The notes under the pieces are model-generated. The model was not told where the DNA came from, made no database searches, and was given only the letters and a program-made list of their open reading frames with translations. 64,000 nt of DNA. Origin: Hymenobacter canadensis (GTDB lineage: Bacteria > Bacteroidota > Bacteroidia > Cytophagales > Hymenobacteraceae). The DNA is taken from NCBI RefSeq assembly GCF_027359925.1, contig NZ_CP114767.1, positions 2,914,001 through 2,978,000 on the forward strand, given 5' to 3'. The position numbers and the translations under genes are program-made. Positions 38,761 to 54,992 of the stretch are shown in pieces. Position 1 is the stretch's first letter, and every line of letters starts with the position of its first letter.

Positions 38761-39007
38761 AGAACGGGTAAACAGCCGCCGCCCGGGGTTTGGTTTCCCT
38801 GGGTGCGGTTTAGGTCAGGCGAAGGTACGGCGGGGGCGGCTGGATTTACTTTAGATCTAGCAGACATGTACTACTTTTGACTAAACACATTGTGGTAAAT
38901 AGCTACCTGCTGTCGGCTTGGTTTTCGTCGTTACTTTGCACACCAAAAGCATACTGTTTTACACTATACTACGAAAGAACAGACACTCAACAACATACTA
39001 AACAGCA

Positions 39008-39598
39008 ATGATCAGATTGATGCTCATTAGTTCTTTCAGCTTCATTTCATTTATCTGCAACGGGCAGGTAAAAAGCACTGAAAAATATGTAAATATTCAT
39101 GAAAAATCAAATAACTCAGCATTATTTAAAATGGGCAATGGCACATATTTGGACTTTTATTTAGACAGTAAATTTAAATTTGGCACACATGAATATTATG
39201 TAAAAATTAGAAATTATTCTTGGGGAAAAATCGACACTTCATATATTAGAGAAGACAATAACAACTATTATCATTTCAATCGTAAACTTAAAAACGAGTC
39301 AATATTATTGCCTAAAAATGTTAAATTAGGTCAAACTTGGTTTGAGGCAGACAATAGCTGGTCGTATAAGATAATCGGGATTGACGAAAAGCTCACGACT
39401 CCGGCAAAAAGATACAAAAAATTAGTTGTCGTTGAATGCATCCAGCTCCTTAATAGAGATAAGGAGAAGTTCAAAATGTATCATATGTATTACGCTGAGG
39501 GCGTGGGGCTAATTGCAAGTGTTAACAATGGAAATTTAACAAGCTATTTAGTAGAATTGAAAGAAAATGCCAAAATAGGAGATGTAATAGGAAAATAA
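39008..39598 (+). CDS. Exported protein of unknown function, low G+C
   Basis: A 196-residue protein with a signal peptide (MIRLMLISSFSFISFICNG). No family was recognised. The DNA is very A+T-rich (about 32% G+C over 39061-39120, by hand count) in a genome of roughly 60% G+C, and codons are A/T-ending, so recent horizontal acquisition is likely. The upstream 38761-39007 has a TAcTTTG-like promoter sequence near 38934. The gene lies between uvrA and a palindromic repeat at 39659. Confidence 0.75.
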   Translation: MIRLMLISSFSFISFICNGQVKSTEKYVNIHEKSNNSALFKMGNGTYLDFYLDSKFKFGTHEYYVKIRNYSWGKIDTSYIREDNNNYYHFNRKLKNESILLPKNVKLGQTWFEADNSWSYKIIGIDEKLTTPAKRYKKLVVVECIQLLNRDKEKFKMYHMYYAEGVGLIASVNNGNLTSYLVELKENAKIGDVIGK

Positions 39599-39658
39599 AT
39601 CAATGTTACTTGCAGCTTTCTTTTATCTATTTATCTAGACATTTCATGATTAAGCTCC

Positions 39659-39797
39659 CCGCACTCGCTCGGCTGCGCCGAGTGAGCCCTACGCCTGAGG
39701 GGCTATGCCCCGAATCCGGCCGCGCCACCCGCGCAGGTGCACGCAGCACAGCTGCTGAAGCATACATGCCTCACTCGGCACAGCCGAGCGAGTGCGG
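39659..39797. repeat. Long palindrome with a GAG/CTC-rich arm
   Basis: Arms 39659-39686 and 39770-39797 (28 bp, one mismatch) begin CCGCACTCGCTCGGCTG and end CAGCCGAGCGAGTGCGG, around an 83-base loop. It follows the low-G+C gene and precedes another A+T-rich small membrane gene, so it lies at a junction of foreign-looking DNA. Confidence 0.8.
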
Positions 39798-39881
39798 AAA
39801 CGGTTGCTCTCTAATCTTGTAAAACACTGCTTTCTGGAATAAACCCCAACTTTTACGCTATTCCTAGAATAATCAATACTC

Positions 39882-40271
39882 ATGGATAACTTCATGCTTG
39901 CCTTCATTTTACTAATCGGCTCAGTCTTTCTGTCAAGGACAATCAATGAAAAAGCTACTCAACATCTCAACCAAAATCAGAAGGCTGACTTAGTAGACCT
40001 ATTCTCGGGTTCTAGGCCCTATACTTTTGGCGCGCTTATCCTTATTCTGCTAGGCTACTTTGCCGGTATAAAATTCAACTTGCTTGATCCATTTCTACTA
40101 TCAGTGCTTTACTGCATTGCTATGCTGGTATTCATCATCAGCGTTAGCATATCAGCCTACAAGAAACTGGTAGCCAATGATTTTCCCAGCCAGTATATCA
40201 AGTCGTACATAACATCCACAGCCGTACGATTCATTGGCATGCTGCTGTTTTTTGTTTTACTGTGGCGTTAG
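39882..40271 (+). CDS. Small integral membrane protein
   Basis: A 129-residue protein with four hydrophobic segments (about 5-19, 49-66, 68-90 and 108-127) and short polar loops. No family was recognised. Its coding sequence is A+T-rich compared with its neighbours. It lies between a palindrome and the minus-strand SGNH hydrolase. Confidence 0.6.
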   Translation: MDNFMLAFILLIGSVFLSRTINEKATQHLNQNQKADLVDLFSGSRPYTFGALILILLGYFAGIKFNLLDPFLLSVLYCIAMLVFIISVSISAYKKLVANDFPSQYIKSYITSTAVRFIGMLLFFVLLWR

Positions 40272-40308
40272 AAATACGCTAGACGGGGCAATTACAGCAC
40301 CAGCGCGC

Positions 40309-44357: not shown

Positions 44358-44459
44358 CTAAATGGCACTGGCTGGCGCGGAACGGGCCGGGTTGCGGCTC
44401 TGTTTACGACGTTCTTGTTCCGGCGTGCGAGGAGTGTCGGGTTTTGAGAAGTCGAGCAT
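44358..44459 (-). CDS. Possible 33-residue small protein
   Basis: A small frame (ATG 44459 to TAG 44360) gives MLDFSKPDTPRTPEQERRKQ, then a short Ser/Arg/Ala tail. It is polar and charged, with no signal or membrane segment. The rest of the 372-base gap 44349-44720 shows no other clear gene. Coding is plausible from composition but not established. Confidence 0.3.
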   Translation of the reverse strand: MLDFSKPDTPRTPEQERRKQSRNPARSAPASAI

Positions 44460-44720
44460 AGTTCAATAGAAATATATAGCAAAGACATAAACTGCCGGCA
44501 ATAAAAATAGCCGCTATTTCTGATGAAACAGCGGTTATATATCCTTGGCTTGCCTGGGTAAGGCGGGGGCCGCCGTTGGGGCCGGTCTGGCAGCTGGCAC
44601 GGCCGGGGCAGGCGTACGGGTTCATTTACAAGATTTTGGCAATGCCGGACAATTCTGGCGGACGGCTGTTGAAACTGGATGGGTGCTGCCGCACCTAGTG
44701 TCTCACCAATCCCAACTGCT

Positions 44721-46414: not shown

Positions 46415-47683
46415 ATGCCTGACCTTCCCGCCGCTGCCGGCTTTCCGCGCCTCACCTACCTGCGCATCAAAAACTACCGCGCCCTGCGCGACGTGGAGCT
46501 GCGCGACCTGACGCCGCTGACGGTGCTCATCGGCCCCAACGGCAGCGGCAAATCCACGGTGCTCGACGCGCTGGCATTTCTGGCCGAAGCGGTGAGCGGC
46601 AACCTGCAACAAGCCTGGGAAAAGCGCAACCGGTTTGCCGGGATGCGTACGCGCGGGCAGGACGGGCCGATTGAGTTTGAGGTGGAGATAGATGCTGCCC
46701 CACCATTACAAAGCTTGCGATACAATTTAGCTATTAATGAAGTGGATGGAGAGTGGATACGCGAGGAAGAGTGGTTGAGTCAACGGAAGCTAAACGGCGA
46801 CAACTATCCTCTATTCAACATCATAAAAAAGGCGGTAGGTAACTTCGTCTCTATAGTTACATATGAAAAATTCACTCCTGATGAGGTAGATAGAGAAAAT
46901 CAAACTCGAACAGTAGAAGCTATAAATGAGGGTTTCTTTCAAGCCCATAATAATCTTGCACTGCCTGTATTTGCATCCTTCCAAGGTGTGATTCAGCAGC
47001 AAGCTGTTCGGGTAATAAATCTTCTCACCTCCTACCGTTACATCCACCTCACCGACGACCACCTGAAAGGCTACTCCGATGCGGGGCCGCGGGAGAAGCT
47101 GTCGGCGAATGGGGACAACCTGCCCAACGTGCTGTACTACCTGCACACCAAGCACCCGGAGGCGCTGGCGCACATCAGCGAGAAGCTGCGGCGCTGGGTG
47201 CCGGGGTTGGCGGAGGTGGTGCCGGAAATAACCTCGGATGAGCGGCTGCTGCTGCGCTTCCGGGATGCGCCGTTTGAGAAGCCGCTGCCGGCCCAGTACA
47301 TGTCGGATGGGACGATGCGGCTGGCGGCGCTGCTGACGCTGCTCTATGAGCCTAACGCCACCGGTCTGCTGGGGATTGAGGAGCCGGAAAACGAGCTGCA
47401 CCCACGCCTGCTGCCGCGCCTGGCCGAGGAGCTCAGCAAAGCCACCGAGACACGGCAGCTGCTGGTGGCTACTCATTCGCCCTTCCTGCTGGATGCGCTG
47501 GAACCGGAGCAGGTCTGGATTCTGCACCGGGGCGCTGATGGCTACACCCAGGCCACGCGCACGGCGGATATTCCGCAGGTGAAGGAGCTGGTGGAAGATG
47601 GCTCGCCGCTGGGTTACCTCTGGACCAGCAACTTCTTCCGCCTCGGCGACCCGCTGGCTCCCCGCACCTCAGCCGCGCAGTAG
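46415..47683 (+). CDS. AAA/ABC-type ATPase (OLD/RecF-like), defence-type pair partner
   Basis: A 422-residue ATPase of the AAA_15/AAA_21 (RecF/SMC-like) type. Walker A is IGPNGSGKST (about 39-48), the signature-like stretch is YMSDGTMRLAALL (about 295-307), Walker B is LLGIEEPENELHP (about 318-330), and the His switch is ATHSPFLLDALE (about 352-363). Residues 93-208 are encoded by low-G+C DNA (see findings), while both flanks have ordinary G+C. The stop is one base before the start of the DUF4276 gene, an operon-type junction. Such ATPases act as regulators or motors for the nuclease partner in OLD-like, PARIS-like and Septu-like anti-phage systems. The name of this system is not established. 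Confidence 0.88.
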   Translation: MPDLPAAAGFPRLTYLRIKNYRALRDVELRDLTPLTVLIGPNGSGKSTVLDALAFLAEAVSGNLQQAWEKRNRFAGMRTRGQDGPIEFEVEIDAAPPLQSLRYNLAINEVDGEWIREEEWLSQRKLNGDNYPLFNIIKKAVGNFVSIVTYEKFTPDEVDRENQTRTVEAINEGFFQAHNNLALPVFASFQGVIQQQAVRVINLLTSYRYIHLTDDHLKGYSDAGPREKLSANGDNLPNVLYYLHTKHPEALAHISEKLRRWVPGLAEVVPEITSDERLLLRFRDAPFEKPLPAQYMSDGTMRLAALLTLLYEPNATGLLGIEEPENELHPRLLPRLAEELSKATETRQLLVATHSPFLLDALEPEQVWILHRGADGYTQATRTADIPQVKELVEDGSPLGYLWTSNFFRLGDPLAPRTSAAQ

Positions 47684-47684
47684 T

Positions 47685-48287
47685 ATGCACCTAGAGTTTC
47701 TGCTGGAAGAACCTTCCTCGGAGGCGGCGCTGGATATCCTGCTGCCCAAACTGCTGCCACCCGATACCACCTGGCGCTGCTACCCGCACCGCGGCAAAAC
47801 CGATTTGTTCCAGCGCCTGCCCGGCCGGCTGAAAACCTACGCCCGCCAGCTACCCCACCAGCCGGAGCTGCGGGTCGTCATTCTGATGGATGCCGACACC
47901 GATTGCCGACGGCGGAAAGCGGAGCTGGAACAGGTGGTGGCCGACGCGGGCCTGCTGACCAAAACCAGCGCCGCCCCCCACGAGCCGTTTCGCATCATCA
48001 CGCGGCTGGCCGTGCAGGAGCTGGAAGCGTGGTTTCTCGGCGACCGGGAGGCCATTCAGGCGGCGTATCCGCGCGTCCGGCACCAGCATTTCAGTGGCTT
48101 GCCGCACGACCCCGATACTATTGCGGACACCTGGGAAACGCTGTGGCGCGTGTTGCGGGAAGGCAAGTACTACCTGACGGGCAAAGCCAAGGTGGAATGG
48201 GCCGAAACCATTGCCCCGCACCTCGACCCGGCCCGCAATACCTCGGCCAGCTTTCAGTATTTCCGCCAAGGGCTGGCGCGGCTGTAG
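47685..48287 (+). CDS. DUF4276 family (TOPRIM-like) protein
   Basis: A 200-residue protein of the DUF4276 family, typically next to an AAA ATPase gene. The TOPRIM-like pattern is visible: an N-terminal FLLEEPSSEAALDILLPKLL with Glu 8/9, then VVILMDADTD with Asp 69, 71 and 73 near the DxD motif. In OLD, PARIS and related systems the TOPRIM partner is the effector nuclease. Whether DUF4276 cleaves DNA or RNA here is an inference. The start, ATG 47685, is one base after the ATPase stop. The stop is inside the left arm of a long palindrome (48283-48380). Confidence 0.82.
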   Translation: MHLEFLLEEPSSEAALDILLPKLLPPDTTWRCYPHRGKTDLFQRLPGRLKTYARQLPHQPELRVVILMDADTDCRRRKAELEQVVADAGLLTKTSAAPHEPFRIITRLAVQELEAWFLGDREAIQAAYPRVRHQHFSGLPHDPDTIADTWETLWRVLREGKYYLTGKAKVEWAETIAPHLDPARNTSASFQYFRQGLARL

Positions 48288-48454: not shown

Positions 48455-49141
48455 TTAGAAGGCGGGCACGGCCGGTTTCTCGCTGCGGTGGGCGGTGTCA
48501 ATCACCTGGCGGGCCGACTGGTAGGCGGTGTAGAAGCGGGGCTCGGGGCGCTGGTAGCGCACCAGGTACTTATCGAGGCGGTTGCGGAGCAGGGCCACGG
48601 CGGCGCTCAGGTCGGCGGCAAGAGCCTGAGTGTTGGCTTTGCCGTCGGCGGTGGCGAGGCGGGGGGCCGACTGGCCGGCCTGGAAGGCGGTGAGGGCGGC
48701 GGCCAGCTCGGTGAGCTCCTGCTGCGTGACGCCCTGGTCCTGGAGGGCCGTGAGATGGGCGGTGGCCTGGTCGTGGATGTTTTTGGCGATGCGGGCCAGG
48801 TCGTTGTCGGGGGCGCGGCGGAGCTGGCGCTCGGTGTAGTCGGCGTCGGTGTGGAGTCGGATGTCCTGTTGCTCGTCGGCGTAGGCGAGCAGGGCGGCGG
48901 CTACTTCGGCGGCGCGCTGGGCCAGGTGCAGCTTGGTGGCCTTTTTCACGGCCCCGGCGCTGCGGGGAGCGGCGGCGCTTTGCTGGGTTTCGGCGGTGGG
49001 GTCCAGGTCCTGGACCAGGACGGCCAGCTCGGCGCGGGCGGTGCCCAGGGCTTTGTTGGCGGCATAGACCTCGGCGTACTGGTCGAGGACGGCGAGGGTG
49101 GCCTGCATCATGGTGAGGCGGGCGCGTTGCTTATCGGTCAT
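48455..49141 (-). CDS. Helical protein of unknown function
   Basis: A 228-residue protein, Ala/Gln/Leu/Glu-rich, almost all predicted alpha helix (RLTMMQATLAVLDQYAEVYAANKALGTARAELAVLVQDLD, AEVAAALLAYADEQQDIRL and so on), which suggests a helical bundle. No family was recognised. I start at ATG 49141 (MTDKQRARLTMMQ). The frame is open further to 49462, through the 21-bp tandem repeat array, giving Pro/Gly/Arg-rich sequence that I do not consider coding with confidence. It stands between the two ATPase-nuclease pairs; whether it belongs to either is unknown. Confidence 0.65.
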   Translation of the reverse strand: MTDKQRARLTMMQATLAVLDQYAEVYAANKALGTARAELAVLVQDLDPTAETQQSAAAPRSAGAVKKATKLHLAQRAAEVAAALLAYADEQQDIRLHTDADYTERQLRRAPDNDLARIAKNIHDQATAHLTALQDQGVTQQELTELAAALTAFQAGQSAPRLATADGKANTQALAADLSAAVALLRNRLDKYLVRYQRPEPRFYTAYQSARQVIDTAHRSEKPAVPAF

Positions 49142-49227
49142 AATAAGGTAAGGGTTAAAGTACCTCCAAAAGATAGGCGGTGGCGCGGAGCATCTGCTAC
49201 GCCGGGCGGCAACTTTTTTCTGCCGGG

Positions 49228-49478
49228 GTGGCAACGGCCGCTGACCCACTGACAACGCCCGCCGCCCCGGTGGCAACGCCCGCTGCCCGCGTGACAACGG
49301 GCGCTGACCAAGTGGCAAGGCCCTCGCCCCCGTGACAATGTCCCCTGACCCGGTGGCACTGCCTGCTGCCCCCGTGACAAGGGCCGCTGCCCAGGTGACA
49401 ACGCCCAGTGGCGGGCTGACAAGCCGTGCTAACCGGGTGGCATCCGCTGCTAACGGGGGCACAACGCCCTCAGCCCGC
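49228..49478. repeat. Tandem array of about 12 units of 21 bp
   Basis: Imperfect units with the consensus GTGRCAACGCCCGCTGMCCCG. Start positions: 49228, 49249, 49270, 49291, 49312, 49332, 49353, 49374, 49395, 49416, 49437 and 49458. All are 21 bp except the fifth (49312-49331), which is 20 bp. Most begin GTGGCA or GTGACA. Units are diverged but keep the period. There is no spacer between units, so it is not CRISPR. It lies just upstream of the helical protein gene (minus strand) in the otherwise gene-free 49142-49572. Confidence 0.85.
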
Positions 49479-49572
49479 CGCCGCAGAGGCTGTAGCAGCG
49501 GCGCGGATATGGTCTCCGCATTATGACAGATTTGTATTGTACCTCATCTGCCATACACTAGCGTAAGCAGCC

Positions 49573-50058
49573 TCAACCTTTGCTCTTTTCCATCTCACTC
49601 ATACATAAGAACTCTACTGATATACCACACCGTTCTAAAGCTTCAATGTGAATATACCAATCTGTATCTGTTGCATTAACAATAGGTGGGTTTCCTGCGT
49701 GAGCAATTGCTAACGCAACGAATTTCCTATCCGACAAATCAAATTTATCTAAGCCTTCATCATCGGGAAAATCACTATAACTTCCATCTTCATTACAGTT
49801 CAAGGCAATCGTTTCACAGCGAAGAGGATTTGCGCGGTTTTGCAATACCCATTTCAAAAAAGCATCACCTGGGCCAGGTTGGCCACTGCTACTGAGCTTA
49901 TTCTGATATTCGCTAATTATATTGAATTCATCATCTAATACTATTATTTGGTTTTGTGTAGCGAGTATCCGTTCAGATGCAGCTAAAACACAAGCTGGTC
50001 CAGCTGATGAAACACCATTTGCTGTTAGAGGAACATTTGTATCTATTATATATTTCAT
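49573..50058 (-). CDS. PIN-domain protein, nuclease partner of the second ATPase
   Basis: A 161-residue PIN-type protein. Likely acidic residues: Asp 6 in YIIDTNVPL, an acidic residue around 44-50 (DDEFNIISE), Asp 110 in DLSDRKFVALA and Asp 131/133 in NATDTDW. These fit the metal-binding set of PIN nucleases, which cleave RNA. It starts four bases after the stop of the upstream ATPase gene, so they form one operon. The DNA is A+T-rich compared with the surrounding genome. PIN proteins are common toxins and effector nucleases; here an ATPase partner, not a small antitoxin, is adjacent. There is no other antitoxin gene in sight. Confidence 0.82.
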   Translation of the reverse strand: MKYIIDTNVPLTANGVSSAGPACVLAASERILATQNQIIVLDDEFNIISEYQNKLSSSGQPGPGDAFLKWVLQNRANPLRCETIALNCNEDGSYSDFPDDEGLDKFDLSDRKFVALAIAHAGNPPIVNATDTDWYIHIEALERCGISVEFLCMSEMEKSKG

Positions 50059-50062
50059 TTTT

Positions 50063-51430
50063 TTAATTTATTTTTTTCGCTTTCTTTCTTTTTGACTCGG
50101 CTTGAACCATTGCTGTTGCATCACCCATTACATCACCAAAAAAACCTAAGGGCCAATTCTTTATATTTCCATATTCATCCAATTGCAATGCTGTTAAGCT
50201 CGAGCTAGACTCGGTGAACGAAGAAAAATTCAATTTAATTTTACTAGGATCTATTGCTTCTTCGGCAATTCTTCTTTGTAATCTTTGCAATAGATGCTCA
50301 CTATGACTTTCTAATATAATTTGCAAATTTCTATACTTAATTACATCTATAAATACATCGGCTAACCCAGCCTGTACAGCAGGATGCAAGTGAATTTCTG
50401 GCTGCTCTAATATGATTGTTGAGTTAATTGGAACATAGTAGCAAAGCACTAGAACAGGAAGTATCTGAGAAACCCCGAATCCTACATCAGTGATAAAAAC
50501 ATCATGTGCTTCTGGTGTTCTTTGTACTCTAACTTCGTATTCCTTTCGATTTGGAGCGATAGGTTGAACTTTAAAGCTGTGGATTAGCCCTAGTTCTTTC
50601 AACCAAAATGCAACACTTTGCTCTACTGTGTAAGTTATGTTTTCGCGTTTGATTTTAGTATCACTACCCCCTTGCCTAGAAGCCAGTAAAGCAGCTACGG
50701 CTTTTTCACCTCTTGTTCCAACGTCAGCTGGTTGCTCTCCGGCCCAAACATACAATCTGCTTGGATATTCACGCAATGGTCCTAAATAATAAATACTCTT
50801 AAACAACCTTTCAAAAGAGTATATAAGATCCATTGTTCTAAATCCACCAAATTTAGTTGCTTGTGAACTAGAAAAAGGGAAACCATAAAATTTTTCAGGT
50901 TCAATAGATTCGATTTTTGAAGATTTATTTTTTCCCTTCTCTAACTCCTTTGATTCAATATAATATTGCAATTTATTGCTTTTAGCTACTCTTGATTTTC
51001 TCTTCATTCCAACCTGCCATGATTCTCCCTTAAAAGAAAAGCAGTCGACAAATATCCTGTCTTTTTTTCTTTGTATAGTAGCACTAAAAGTAACATCCTC
51101 GAGAGTTACTTTAATATTTTTGCCGTCAAATCTTCCATAATCAACCCTTTGAAAGGGCCACTGCATACTAAACTCAATTATCCCTGGGTCAGCATGTGCA
51201 TGTATAACATCATATAGTGTTCCCAAGTCAATATAAGAATTGTCTCCTCCTAAATTAAGTATCCTAGAACGATCTGACGACTCTATAGTCTGTTTTAACA
51301 TTAGTATAAATTGCAATATACTGGTTTTGCCTGATGAATTTGTGCCAAAAAAGCCAGTTAGCGAACCTAACTCTATCGTGCCAGTGTCCTGCCAAGACTT
51401 GAAATGCTGGATTCTGATGTTATTGATCAT
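50063..51430 (-). CDS. AAA ATPase, DUF3696/OLD-like, low G+C
   Basis: A 455-residue ATPase. Walker A GTNSSGKTS at about 29-37, a VGFGVSQILPVLVL signature-like stretch, Walker B STIILEQPEIHLHP and the distal SHSEHLLQRL. This is the AAA_15/DUF3696 type, related to OLD and RecF-like ATPases. The insert between the Walker motifs contains a long Lys/Ser-rich variable region. I start at ATG 51430 (MINNIRIQHFKSWQDTG); the longer frame to 51484 overlaps the mfd stop. G+C is very low in places (15/60 at 50881-50940, hand count). It lies 28 bp after mfd, on the same strand, and 4 bp before the PIN gene. Confidence 0.85.
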   Translation of the reverse strand: MINNIRIQHFKSWQDTGTIELGSLTGFFGTNSSGKTSILQFILMLKQTIESSDRSRILNLGGDNSYIDLGTLYDVIHAHADPGIIEFSMQWPFQRVDYGRFDGKNIKVTLEDVTFSATIQRKKDRIFVDCFSFKGESWQVGMKRKSRVAKSNKLQYYIESKELEKGKNKSSKIESIEPEKFYGFPFSSSQATKFGGFRTMDLIYSFERLFKSIYYLGPLREYPSRLYVWAGEQPADVGTRGEKAVAALLASRQGGSDTKIKRENITYTVEQSVAFWLKELGLIHSFKVQPIAPNRKEYEVRVQRTPEAHDVFITDVGFGVSQILPVLVLCYYVPINSTIILEQPEIHLHPAVQAGLADVFIDVIKYRNLQIILESHSEHLLQRLQRRIAEEAIDPSKIKLNFSSFTESSSSLTALQLDEYGNIKNWPLGFFGDVMGDATAMVQAESKRKKAKKIN

Positions 51431-51458
51431 CAATTGAGTATTTGAAGTTTTGGTAAAA

Positions 51459-54400
51459 TTAGATAACTCCCACCGTTTCCTCACTCACCAGCTCGTTCAG
51501 GATGCGCTTGGCGGCCTGGACGCTTTTCACGTCCTCGAAGGAGATGATGAGCTGTTCTTTGCGCTCCTTCATGGAGGCGGAGCGCGGGTGGGTCTGCACG
51601 TAGCTGAGGATGTTGCCGAAGGTAGCGCCCTGGAAGTAGGGCTCGTTGTTGGTGGCCGGGATGAAGCCTTTGAGCAGGTTCTTCTTGAGCGTGAGCTTCT
51701 CGAACCCGGTCTGGCAGGCCAGCCAGCGCAGGCGCACGATGTCGGCGAGCTGCTCCACCTCCTCGGGCAGCGGCCCGAAACGGTCCACGATGCCGGTAAG
51801 CAGCTTGCGCAGCTCCTCGGCGTTTTTGGCCCGATCGAGCTTGCTGTAGAGCTGCAGGCGCTCCGAGACGCTGCTCACGTAGCGGTCCGGAATGAGCACC
51901 TGCAGGTCGGTTTCGATGTTGCACTCCTTGGGGCCGCTGGTGCCGGCGGCCTGCTGGAGGCGCTGGGTGGGGTCGCCGAGGAACAGGTCGCGGAACTCGG
52001 TTTCCTTGAGCTCCTGCACGGCCTCGTCGAGAATCTGGTGGTAGGTTTCAAAGCCCAGGTCGTTGATGAAGCCCGACTGCTCGCCGCCCAGCAGGTTGCC
52101 CGCGCCCCGGATGTCCAGGTCGCGCATGGCCACGTTGAAGCCCGCGCCCAGGTCCGAGAATTCTTCGAGGGTACTCAGGCGCTTGCGGGCATCGGAGGGC
52201 AGGCCGGCCACTGGGGGCGTGAGCAGGTAGCAGTAGGCCTTTTTGTTGGAGCGGCCCACGCGGCCCCGCATCTGGTGCAGGTCGGAGAGGCCGTGCATGT
52301 GGGCCCGGTTGATGAGGATGGTGTTGGCGTTGGCAATGTCGAGGCCCGACTCGATGAGGGTGGTGGCCACCAGCACGTCGTAGTCGCCGTCCACGAACTT
52401 CATCATGCGCTTTTCCAGCAGGTCGCCGTCCATCTGGCCGTGCACGTAGGTCACGCGGGCATCGGGCACGAGGCGCAGAATCATGCTGGCCTGCTCCTCA
52501 ATGTCCTTCACGCGGTTGTGCACGAAAAACACCTGCCCGCCCCGCTTCAGCTCCCGCGAAATGGTGTCGCGAATCAGCAGCTCATCGAATACGTGTAACT
52601 CGGTCTGCACCGGCTGGCGGTTGGGCGGGGGCGTAGCAATCACGCTCAGGTCGCGGGCCCCCATCAGCGAGAAGTGCAGGGTACGCGGAATGGGCGTGGC
52701 CGACAGCGTGAGCGTGTCCACGTTCACCTTGATTTCCTTGAGCTTGTCCTTGGTTTTCACCCCGAACTTCTGCTCCTCGTCAATCACCAGCAAACCCAGG
52801 TCCTTGAACTGCACGTCCTTGTTGGTGAGGCGGTGGGTGCCGATGAGGATGTCGGTTTTGCCCTCTGCCACGCGGCCCAGGGTTTCCTTGATTTGCTTGG
52901 TGCTCTTGAAGCGGTTGACGTACTCCACCGTCACGGGCAGGTTGCCGAGCCGCTCGCGGAACGTTTTGTAGTGCTGCATGGCCAGAATGGTGGTGGGCAC
53001 CAGAATGGCCACCTGCTTGCCATCGGCCACCGACTTGAAGGCGGCCCGGATGGCAATTTCCGTCTTGCCGAAGCCCACGTCGCCGCAGATCAGGCGGTCC
53101 ATGGGGTGGGGCAGCTCCATGTCGCGCTTCACGTCCTCGGTGGCCTTGGCCTGGTCGGGCGTGTCCTCGTAGAGGAAGCTCGATTCCAGCTCGGCCTGCA
53201 TGAAGGAGTCGTGGGCAAAGGCGTGGCCGGGCGCGGTTTTGCGCTTGGCGTACAGCCGGATCAGCTCGGCCGCAATGTCCTTCACTTTCTTCTTAACCGA
53301 CTTTTTCTTGTTTTCCCACTCCGGCGAGCCCAGCTTGCTCATGGTGGGCGGCGTGCCCTCGGCCCCGCTGTACTTGGCAATCTTGTGCAGGGCGTGGATG
53401 CTGACGGTCAGCACGTCGTCGTCGCGGTACACCAGCCGGATGGCTTCCTGCAGCCGGTCGTTGATTTCCACCTGGGTGAGGCCGGCAAAGCGGGCAATGC
53501 CGTAGTCCTGGTGCACCACGTAGTCGCCGGGCACGAGGGTGCGCAGCTCTTTCAGCGTGAGGGCCTTTTTCTTGCTGAACTTCCGCGCCTCCTGGGCCCG
53601 GTAGAACCGCTCGAACAGCTGGTGGTCGGTGTAGACGATGAGCCGCAGCGTCTCGTCGATGAAGCCTTCGCGCAAACCCAGCAGCAGGTGCTGAAACTGC
53701 ACGTTGTTGTCCAGCTCGTCGAAGATGGTGCGCAGACGGTCGGCCTGGCGCACCTGCTCGGCGGCAATGATGTTGGTGTAGCCCTTGGCCTGGTTGTCGT
53801 GCAGATTCTTCACGATGCGGTTGAAGTCCTTGCCGAAGCTGGGCTGGGGCTTGGCGCTGAACTGGAACTCCTCGGCGCCGGTCTTGAAGTGAAACCGTTT
53901 GCCGAACTCCACCACCGCAAACCCTTCCAGCAGCTTGCGCAGCGTCTTGGCCGACTCAAACAAATCGGCCGGCTTGCTCACTACCTGGGTACCGCCCGCC
54001 ACCGCCAGCAGCTCCTGGAAGCCCGCCTCGGCCTTGTCGAAATACTCGTCCACCACGTCGAGGGTCTGGCGCACGTCCTTGGCCCACACGGCGGTGTTCT
54101 TCGGAATGAACTCCAGAAACGCCTCCCGCGTCTCCTGCAGTAGCTTGGTCTGCACGTTCGGGATGATGCTCACCTGCTGCCGCTTCTCCACCGACAGCTG
54201 CGTCTCAGGGTCAAACGTCCGAATCGTCTCCACCTCATCCCCGAACAGCTCGATGCGGTACGGCAGCTCGTTGGCGTACGAGAAAATATCCACGATGCCG
54301 CCGCGCACGGCAAACTGGCCGGCCTCGTACACAAAGTCGCTCCGCTCGAAGTCGTACTCCGCCAGCATCTCACTCACGAAGTTCACGTCCAGCTTGTCGC

Positions 54401-54992
54401 CCACCTTGATGACGAAGGTATTGGCGACCAGGCTTTTCTTGTTGATAACCTTTTCGAACAGGGCTTCGGGATAGGTGACGATGAGCACGCCAGCCGTTTC
54501 CTTGGCGCTGGCCTTGCCGCGCTTCTTGCCTTTGGGCTGGCCGTCGGTTTCCACTGCGTCGGCTGCGTCGTCGGCTTCCTGCTCGGCAGTAGTTTTCGGC
54601 CCGCGGTGGCTATTGAGCTTGTTCAGCACCTCGGCCCGCATCAGCACGTTAGCATTTTCCGTCTCGTCGAAGCTGTAGGGGCGCTTGTAGGAGGTCGGAA
54701 ACAGCAAAGGCTCTTCCTCGGGGACTAGGTGCTGGAGGTCGGCCAGGAAGTAGGCGGCCTCGTCCCGGTCGTGCAGAATGAACAGGTGGTGCTGGTCGGG
54801 ATACTCCTGGTGCACGGCGGCGGCCAGCACGGCATCCTGGGAGCCCACCAGCCCGCGCAGATGCAGGCGCACGGGCGCTTCAGCCTTGTCGGCGGGCCGC
54901 AGCGAGTGGCGGGTGGCCGGATTCAGGCGCGCGCCCAGCGTCATGCCGGTGGGGTCGAGGGCGTAGAGCTTCAGTAAATCGGTAACCTTCAA
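51459..54992 (-). CDS. mfd: Transcription-repair coupling factor
   Basis: A 1177-residue DNA translocase that removes stalled RNA polymerase at lesions and recruits UvrA. The UvrB-homology region is N-terminal, followed by the RNA polymerase-binding domain (around KALTLKELRTLVPGDYVVHQDYGIARFAGL), then the RecG-like helicase domain: Walker A GDVGFGKTE, DEEQ box (VIDEEQKFGV), SATPIPRTL, and MRGRVGRSNKKAYCYLL, and a C-terminal TRCF domain (LLKGFIPATNNEPYFQ). A TAccTTTG promoter element is at 55024-55017 (minus). An insert with a low-complexity stretch (QEADDAADAVETDGQPKGKKR) occurs near residue 140. Confidence 0.96.
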   Translation of the reverse strand: MKVTDLLKLYALDPTGMTLGARLNPATRHSLRPADKAEAPVRLHLRGLVGSQDAVLAAAVHQEYPDQHHLFILHDRDEAAYFLADLQHLVPEEEPLLFPTSYKRPYSFDETENANVLMRAEVLNKLNSHRGPKTTAEQEADDAADAVETDGQPKGKKRGKASAKETAGVLIVTYPEALFEKVINKKSLVANTFVIKVGDKLDVNFVSEMLAEYDFERSDFVYEAGQFAVRGGIVDIFSYANELPYRIELFGDEVETIRTFDPETQLSVEKRQQVSIIPNVQTKLLQETREAFLEFIPKNTAVWAKDVRQTLDVVDEYFDKAEAGFQELLAVAGGTQVVSKPADLFESAKTLRKLLEGFAVVEFGKRFHFKTGAEEFQFSAKPQPSFGKDFNRIVKNLHDNQAKGYTNIIAAEQVRQADRLRTIFDELDNNVQFQHLLLGLREGFIDETLRLIVYTDHQLFERFYRAQEARKFSKKKALTLKELRTLVPGDYVVHQDYGIARFAGLTQVEINDRLQEAIRLVYRDDDVLTVSIHALHKIAKYSGAEGTPPTMSKLGSPEWENKKKSVKKKVKDIAAELIRLYAKRKTAPGHAFAHDSFMQAELESSFLYEDTPDQAKATEDVKRDMELPHPMDRLICGDVGFGKTEIAIRAAFKSVADGKQVAILVPTTILAMQHYKTFRERLGNLPVTVEYVNRFKSTKQIKETLGRVAEGKTDILIGTHRLTNKDVQFKDLGLLVIDEEQKFGVKTKDKLKEIKVNVDTLTLSATPIPRTLHFSLMGARDLSVIATPPPNRQPVQTELHVFDELLIRDTISRELKRGGQVFFVHNRVKDIEEQASMILRLVPDARVTYVHGQMDGDLLEKRMMKFVDGDYDVLVATTLIESGLDIANANTILINRAHMHGLSDLHQMRGRVGRSNKKAYCYLLTPPVAGLPSDARKRLSTLEEFSDLGAGFNVAMRDLDIRGAGNLLGGEQSGFINDLGFETYHQILDEAVQELKETEFRDLFLGDPTQRLQQAAGTSGPKECNIETDLQVLIPDRYVSSVSERLQLYSKLDRAKNAEELRKLLTGIVDRFGPLPEEVEQLADIVRLRWLACQTGFEKLTLKKNLLKGFIPATNNEPYFQGATFGNILSYVQTHPRSASMKERKEQLIISFEDVKSVQAAKRILNELVSEETVGVI

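Follow-up and report, generated by a model that had tools for sequence, protein, structure and literature searches.

A two-gene HEC-03 module behind mfd in Hymenobacter canadensis, with an ATPase whose middle segment is exchangeable and a PIN-domain protein

To our knowledge, PARIS is the nearest worked-out case for the module described here. According to the published account, the ATPase AriA holds AriB, a phage protein binds AriA, and AriB cuts tRNA (PMC12409363). We analyzed a stretch of 64,000 nucleotides from Hymenobacter canadensis (contig NZ_CP114767.1, positions 2,914,001 to 2,978,000, hereafter the window; the genome has 5.09 Mb in 4 contigs) and found, directly behind the mfd gene, an ATPase gene followed by a gene for a PIN-domain nuclease. 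Like PARIS, the pair combines an ABC-type ATPase gene with a nuclease gene, and the ATPase matches the AriA models (4.8e-25 and 9.2e-17), much more weakly than it matches HEC-03B of the PADLOC database. The effectors differ, AriB being a Toprim nuclease. By analogy, we propose that the pair would work like PARIS, yet is not PARIS, with PIN in the place of Toprim. The locus is probably a two-gene HEC-03 anti-phage module, in which a PARIS-like sensor ATPase with an exchangeable sensor would restrain a PIN RNase.

HEC-03 is a candidate system of PADLOC-DB, and both proteins match its models over almost their full length. The ATPase aligns to HEC-03B with residues 1-451 on profile positions 1-454 of 458 (6.5e-135), and the PIN protein to HEC-03A with residues 1-155 on positions 1-154 of 159 (2.9e-28). 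By both family models and by gene adjacency, the pair is a member of HEC-03, differing from the candidate system as described in its place behind mfd, in an insert without anything else. Pfam detected AAA_15, AAA_21 and a C-terminal DUF3696 in the ATPase. This is the ATPase class of OLD and Gabija, but no TOPRIM domain was found in the ATPase by Pfam at E <= 0.1, its C-terminus is DUF3696, and the nuclease is a separate PIN protein. The sole sequence relative of solved structure at E <= 0.001 was an OLD protein, over residues 1-42. Among 23 homologues, the regions that we take to be Walker A and Walker B (LEQPE), together with the ESHSEH region, are invariant or almost so. The structure model of the PIN protein has a predicted fold nearest to VapC, and VapC-type PIN proteins are RNases. 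The preliminary description of this DNA had named a loss of the catalytic PIN acids in homologues as a finding that would speak against its reading; six acids (D6, D42, E50, D107, D110 and D131) proved invariant in 30 homologues. The conserved ATPase-PIN neighbourhood for which it suggested a search was also recovered. A PIN profile search of GTDB contigs gave 276 relatives, and in 78 of the best 80, retained as genome loci, an ATPase lies at most 400 bp upstream of PIN. In a wider locus set with overlapping genomes the ATPase is upstream in 89 of 92, the exceptions being two odd spacings and one PIN fragment, and the estimated spacing is -3 to +39 bp in 86 of these 89 pairs.

According to database records, hosts of the pair include Cyanobacteria, Chloroflexi, Myxococcota, Planctomycetes, Acidobacteria and Proteobacteria. 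Twelve of 72,556 plasmids carry it, six of them typed as conjugative and others as mobilizable; none of 50,697 phage records does. An RNA ligase was first spotted after PIN on an Aeromonas plasmid. A gene for a relative of this ligase shares 4-11 bp with the end of the PIN gene in 12 of 82 loci (10 of the 80 genome loci and both of two viral contigs; 3 of the 82 had less than 500 bp remaining downstream). All five proteins scanned, four of the twelve locus ligases and the plasmid protein, matched PF09414 at 2.1e-30 or better. Together with the PIN fold, this overlap in some loci is a hint that the PIN substrate may be RNA. Other neighbours were seen as well. In some loci PIN is followed by a protein of ~1,100 aa (L107:6529-9837 and L090:1228-4566), which in L107, the one scanned, has a Swt1-like HEPN domain and DUF499. 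On an Acinetobacter soli plasmid (L239:1811-10516) a helicase and an N-6 methylase precede the pair, the ATPase being annotated in two pieces, and on an Aeromonas conjugative plasmid an AbiEii pair lies slightly upstream.

The ATPase-PIN pair is an insertion behind mfd. We found mfd in 70 of 71 genomes of the genus and omitted one flank at a contig end, which left 68 relatives and the window, 69 flanks in all. Searches of these flanks with both proteins (tblastn) found the pair in the window alone, the other match being one weak 68-residue ATPase stretch in L048. Elsewhere in the genus, 10 of 70 genomes have the PIN gene (once as a fragment), in each case away from mfd. In four genomes whose mfd is 96-98% identical to ours (G006, G012, G005 and G054), different cargo lies between mfd and the same gene, here called gene X. 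Homology with these genomes ends at 51459-51466 and restarts at about 49161-49505. The insert has space for the two genes alone, and hence lacks an integrase or transposase. The preliminary description had reported two adjacent genes, 4 bp apart and beginning 28 bp past the mfd stop, of low guanine plus cytosine (GC) content, had taken them to be horizontally acquired, and had advised comparing the region downstream of mfd among relatives. The coordinates were confirmed, with the ATPase gene first and all genes on the minus strand. GC content is 0.360 in the ATPase gene and 0.383 in the PIN gene, against 0.606 in the window. The comparison agrees with acquisition: the AT-rich pair is absent from the 68 other mfd flanks and the nearest relatives carry other modules at this site. 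We conclude that AT-rich DNA carrying the module probably entered the genome at the mfd 3' end. Because the 28-bp gap is too short for a terminator, the module may be co-transcribed with mfd by read-through. The mfd hotspot and the exchangeable ATPase middle, described below, are additions to that first account.

Compact modules have repeatedly landed at the mfd 3' end, and about half of these modules contain defence-type domains. In 23 of the 69 flanks, including the window, a 1-kb stretch of at most 36% GC lies within 3 kb of the mfd stop, a cut-off set after the gap to the next lowest value (43%) was seen. In 12 of the 68 relatives used as an upstream control, such a stretch was found upstream of mfd in 0 of 12 (lowest 43%) versus downstream in 8 of the same 12 (Fisher 0.0013). 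A protein with a conflict-type domain is present in 12 of the 23 AT-rich inserts, counting the window's pair. The cargo includes NACHT proteins (L041, L043 and L150), OLD/AriA-like ATPases (L039, L048, L049 and L152), an ATPase with DUF4276 (L147), HEPN with GmrSD (L146), Clp_N with KAP (L052) and PIN with an M78 peptidase (L045). Two flanks (L043 and L154) have a displaced mfd copy before the AT-rich part. In flanks that are not AT-rich by this measure, an AlbA_2 protein (L044) and HEC-01 pairs likewise lie within a few kb of mfd. The cargo proteins of different genomes are mostly unrelated: the 31 main proteins gave four matches between genomes at 1e-5, including the short match to the window ATPase. 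No integrase was present among the cargo proteins scanned. By eye, where cargo converges on mfd (L041, L045, L051 and L053), a long and almost perfect hairpin often occupies the gap, with arms of up to ~40 bp in L041, which is probably a two-way terminator.

Beyond the cargo, six of the 69 flanks repeat the mfd 3' end in a second copy that is truncated on its 5' side. This copy best matches the mfd of its own genome in four cases (93.6-96.6%) and that of another genome in two, one of them a near tie. After the displaced copies of G054 and G002 come a terminator and a gene starting with MLDFSKPD; since the same terminator and gene follow intact mfd directly in G014 and G007, the displaced copy marks the old junction. 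A remnant of this junction persists in the window ~7 kb from mfd, where tblastn found no mfd tail beside it. The displaced copies vary in length, so a fixed integrase site is not suggested, and we infer that modules arrive via recombination on the mfd 3' end.

The ATPase itself is variable in one part. Among 14 Hymenobacter ATPases (91 pairs), mean pairwise identity is 0.19 for residues 76-214, 0.84 on the N side and 0.76 on the C side. We extended the comparison to 120 proteins listed of 8,000 scored in the database, from which 7 without the N-terminal FKSW motif were removed. Among the 113 proteins left of these listed matches, 687 pairs have a C-part identity of at least 0.85, and in 598 of them the identity of the middle is below 0.30. 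The proteins P0159 and P0168 have identities of 1.00 in the N part, 0.13 in the middle and 0.98 in the C part, with sharp borders in the alignment. P0148 and P0159 have a common cassette (68%), while P0138 and P0168, their twins in the conserved chassis (C 0.98 each), carry unrelated ones. Such a pattern, in which a third protein has a closer chassis but an unrelated cassette, was seen in 6 of the 54 pairs that share a cassette. Among 41 twins with a C part at least 0.93 identical, no similarity of the cassettes could be detected in 24, and 5 share half or more. These alignments show, at the level of protein sequence, that the ATPase middle segment is exchanged between near-identical relatives. 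Four loci of the genus (L021, L023, L059 and L063) have a common upstream flank, and L024, L065 and L067 also have flanks in common; because several genes sit at one chromosomal address, the segment seems to have been changed in place. At fourfold sites, the cassettes of the 13 other Hymenobacter genes all have a GC of 0.17-0.36, which in 12 of them is well below that of the flanks. The difference between flanks and middle averages 0.42, and is small in L026 alone, where the whole gene is AT-rich. The window ATPase is AT-rich over its entire gene, chassis included.

The exchangeable cassette is likely to be the phage sensor, and the unrelated cassettes of near-identical ATPases are likely to recognise different viruses. 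Putative sensors that are tied to NACHT defences and diversified by diversity-generating retroelements (DGR) are a published parallel (PMC10907252), but in HEC-03 whole segments are exchanged. No description of the cassette exchange, the mfd hotspot or the RNA-ligase variant was found among the papers listed in searches of the open-access literature, preprints and most subscription papers being outside this search. In the module that we propose, the ABC-type ATPase would keep the PIN nuclease inactive at rest, as AriA does with AriB, and a phage product would be recognised by the exchangeable middle segment. The released PIN enzyme would then cut RNA, as its fold and the RNA ligase of some loci suggest, and this cutting might lead to growth arrest or abortive infection of the infected cell.

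The window harbors a second module, a HEC-01 pair of an AAA_21 ATPase and a DUF4276 protein (46415-48287). Its ATPase has the same kind of variable AT-rich middle as that of HEC-03 (at about 46679-47035), but the effector belongs to a different family and the pair is convergent with mfd. HEC-01A identities are 0.82, 0.18 and 0.81 for the N part, middle and C part, and the fourfold GC difference has a mean of 0.52 and a minimum of 0.14 (29 of 30 loci). A search at 1e-60 detected HEC-01A in 32 of 120 genomes of the genus. Several relatives have a HEC-01 pair no more than a few kb from mfd, and the HEC-01B protein was matched in 6 of the 68 relative mfd flanks, once partially. We judge the chances about even that the HEC-03 and HEC-01 ATPases are antigen-receptor-like immune receptors, whose sensor cassette of ~110-150 residues would be swapped by recombination from an AT-rich pool. 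Recombination on the mfd 3' end, with no integrase involved, would deliver their modules to a fixed site behind mfd and replace them there, the displaced mfd tails being the scars.

The coordinates of all features are collected in Table 1. Gene X had no Pfam match, and its real start is probably near 49161, with a GC-rich repeat tract before it. Between gene X and the insert (49160-49500) there are GC-rich degenerate short repeats (TTGTCACC..GGGCAG.., ~24 bp by eye), seen also in G012 and G054. A further AT-rich stretch (38860-40300; 38% GC at 39001-40000), beside a gene that by eye resembles uvrA, carries open reading frames of 196 and 129 aa of unknown kind.

Table 1. Features of the HEC-03 insert and its surroundings, in window positions
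Feature	Position	Strand	Remarks
ATPase gene	50063..51430	(-)	HEC-03B; AAA_15/AAA_21 + DUF3696; 455 aa
PIN-domain nuclease gene, putative RNase effector	49573..50058	(-)	HEC-03A; 161 aa
Hypervariable cassette of the ATPase, putative sensor	50789..51205	(-)	Residues ~76-214
mfd, 3' end as insertion address	51459..54992	(-)	
Whole insert, from mfd stop to flank common with relatives	49506..51458	n/a	Homology breakpoints
Gene X, far side of insert	48455..49462	(-)	In 13/69 mfd flanks including the window
HEC-01A-type ATPase, second module	46415..47683	(+)	PADLOC 2.8e-142; start picked by eye
HEC-01B-type DUF4276 protein	47685..48287	(+)	PADLOC 1.2e-82; Pfam DUF4276 2.4e-20; start picked by eye
Remnant of ancestral mfd-downstream junction	44431..44536	(-)	Terminator + MLDFSKPD gene start; ~7 kb from mfd

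Several results weigh against a HEC-03 anti-phage module with an exchangeable sensor acquired at a defence hotspot. The structure model of the ATPase is poor (predicted local distance difference test score, pLDDT, 58.8), and the fold of the cassette therefore cannot be assigned. Eleven of the 23 AT-rich inserts are without a clear defence domain; among these, L145 matches PADLOC CARF_2OG, and L148 has a GHKL-type ATPase domain and a weak HSDR_N match. Of the 687 pairs with a similar chassis, 45 have a cassette in common (middle identity at least 0.5). No close donor of the window cassette was detected in 395 sampled Bacteroidia genomes, the best candidate being one weak match (E 6e-4, 25% identity). 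In other phyla the GC step from flank to middle is weak, with a mean of 0.04 and more than 0.1 in 19% of 67 ATPases (those of 72 loci that passed the length filter), and for this reason the import of AT-rich cassettes is argued for Hymenobacter alone. The middle is still the least conserved part in these 67 proteins (0.26 versus 0.58 and 0.56). The PF09414 RNA ligase has no match in the window's genome, and none lies in the window or beside the ten loci of the genus, so the clue to RNA stems from other phyla.

Other explanations account for part of these observations. It is improbable that the module is kept by toxin-antitoxin addiction and not by phage sensing, with PIN as a VapC-type toxin and the ATPase as antitoxin or regulator. 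VapBC shares with our pair the VapC-type PIN fold with its conserved acids, and the close coupling of the two genes and their presence on conjugative and mobilizable plasmids fit this explanation too. PIN, however, is paired with an ATPase of 455 aa that has conserved motifs, and not with a small DNA-binding antitoxin like VapB; the ATPase gene comes first, the insert has no further gene, and addiction leaves the exchangeable ATPase middle unexplained. PIN might also cut invader DNA, together with an ATPase that loads onto DNA in the manner of RecF/Rad50-like or Septu-type systems. The RNase activity of VapC-type PIN proteins and the overlap of an RNA ligase gene with the end of PIN, seen in 12 of 82 loci, make this rather doubtful.

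We also consider it unlikely that local mutation or relaxed selection, without exchange, made the middle variable and AT-rich by fast drift, for example because the segment, lacking homology, escapes GC-biased gene conversion. The failure to find a close donor in the Bacteroidia sample fits such drift, as does a GC step that is strong in this high-GC genus alone. Pairs with identities of 1.00, 0.98 and 0.13 for the N part, C part and middle have sharp borders, however, and drift would not readily make the six pairs in which a third protein has a closer chassis and an unrelated cassette; in the window, moreover, the whole ATPase gene is AT-rich, including the chassis. A housekeeping or repair role linked to mfd, such as a response to stalled transcription, is suggested by the common strand and the 28-bp distance, but is contradicted by the variable cargo: the pair is behind mfd in 0 of 68 relatives, and unrelated cargo occupies the site in the nearest ones. 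We regard such a role as highly improbable.

Few systems are understood in terms of how a bacterial sensor ATPase recognises phages. A series of ATPases with 98-100% identity except in a single stretch of ~135 residues, in which they are unrelated, is a natural swap experiment; it points to the likely sensor and allows its triggers to be mapped. Through the mfd address, compact defence modules can be sought across a single genus, and the displaced mfd tails make it possible to investigate the movement of such modules when no integrase is involved.
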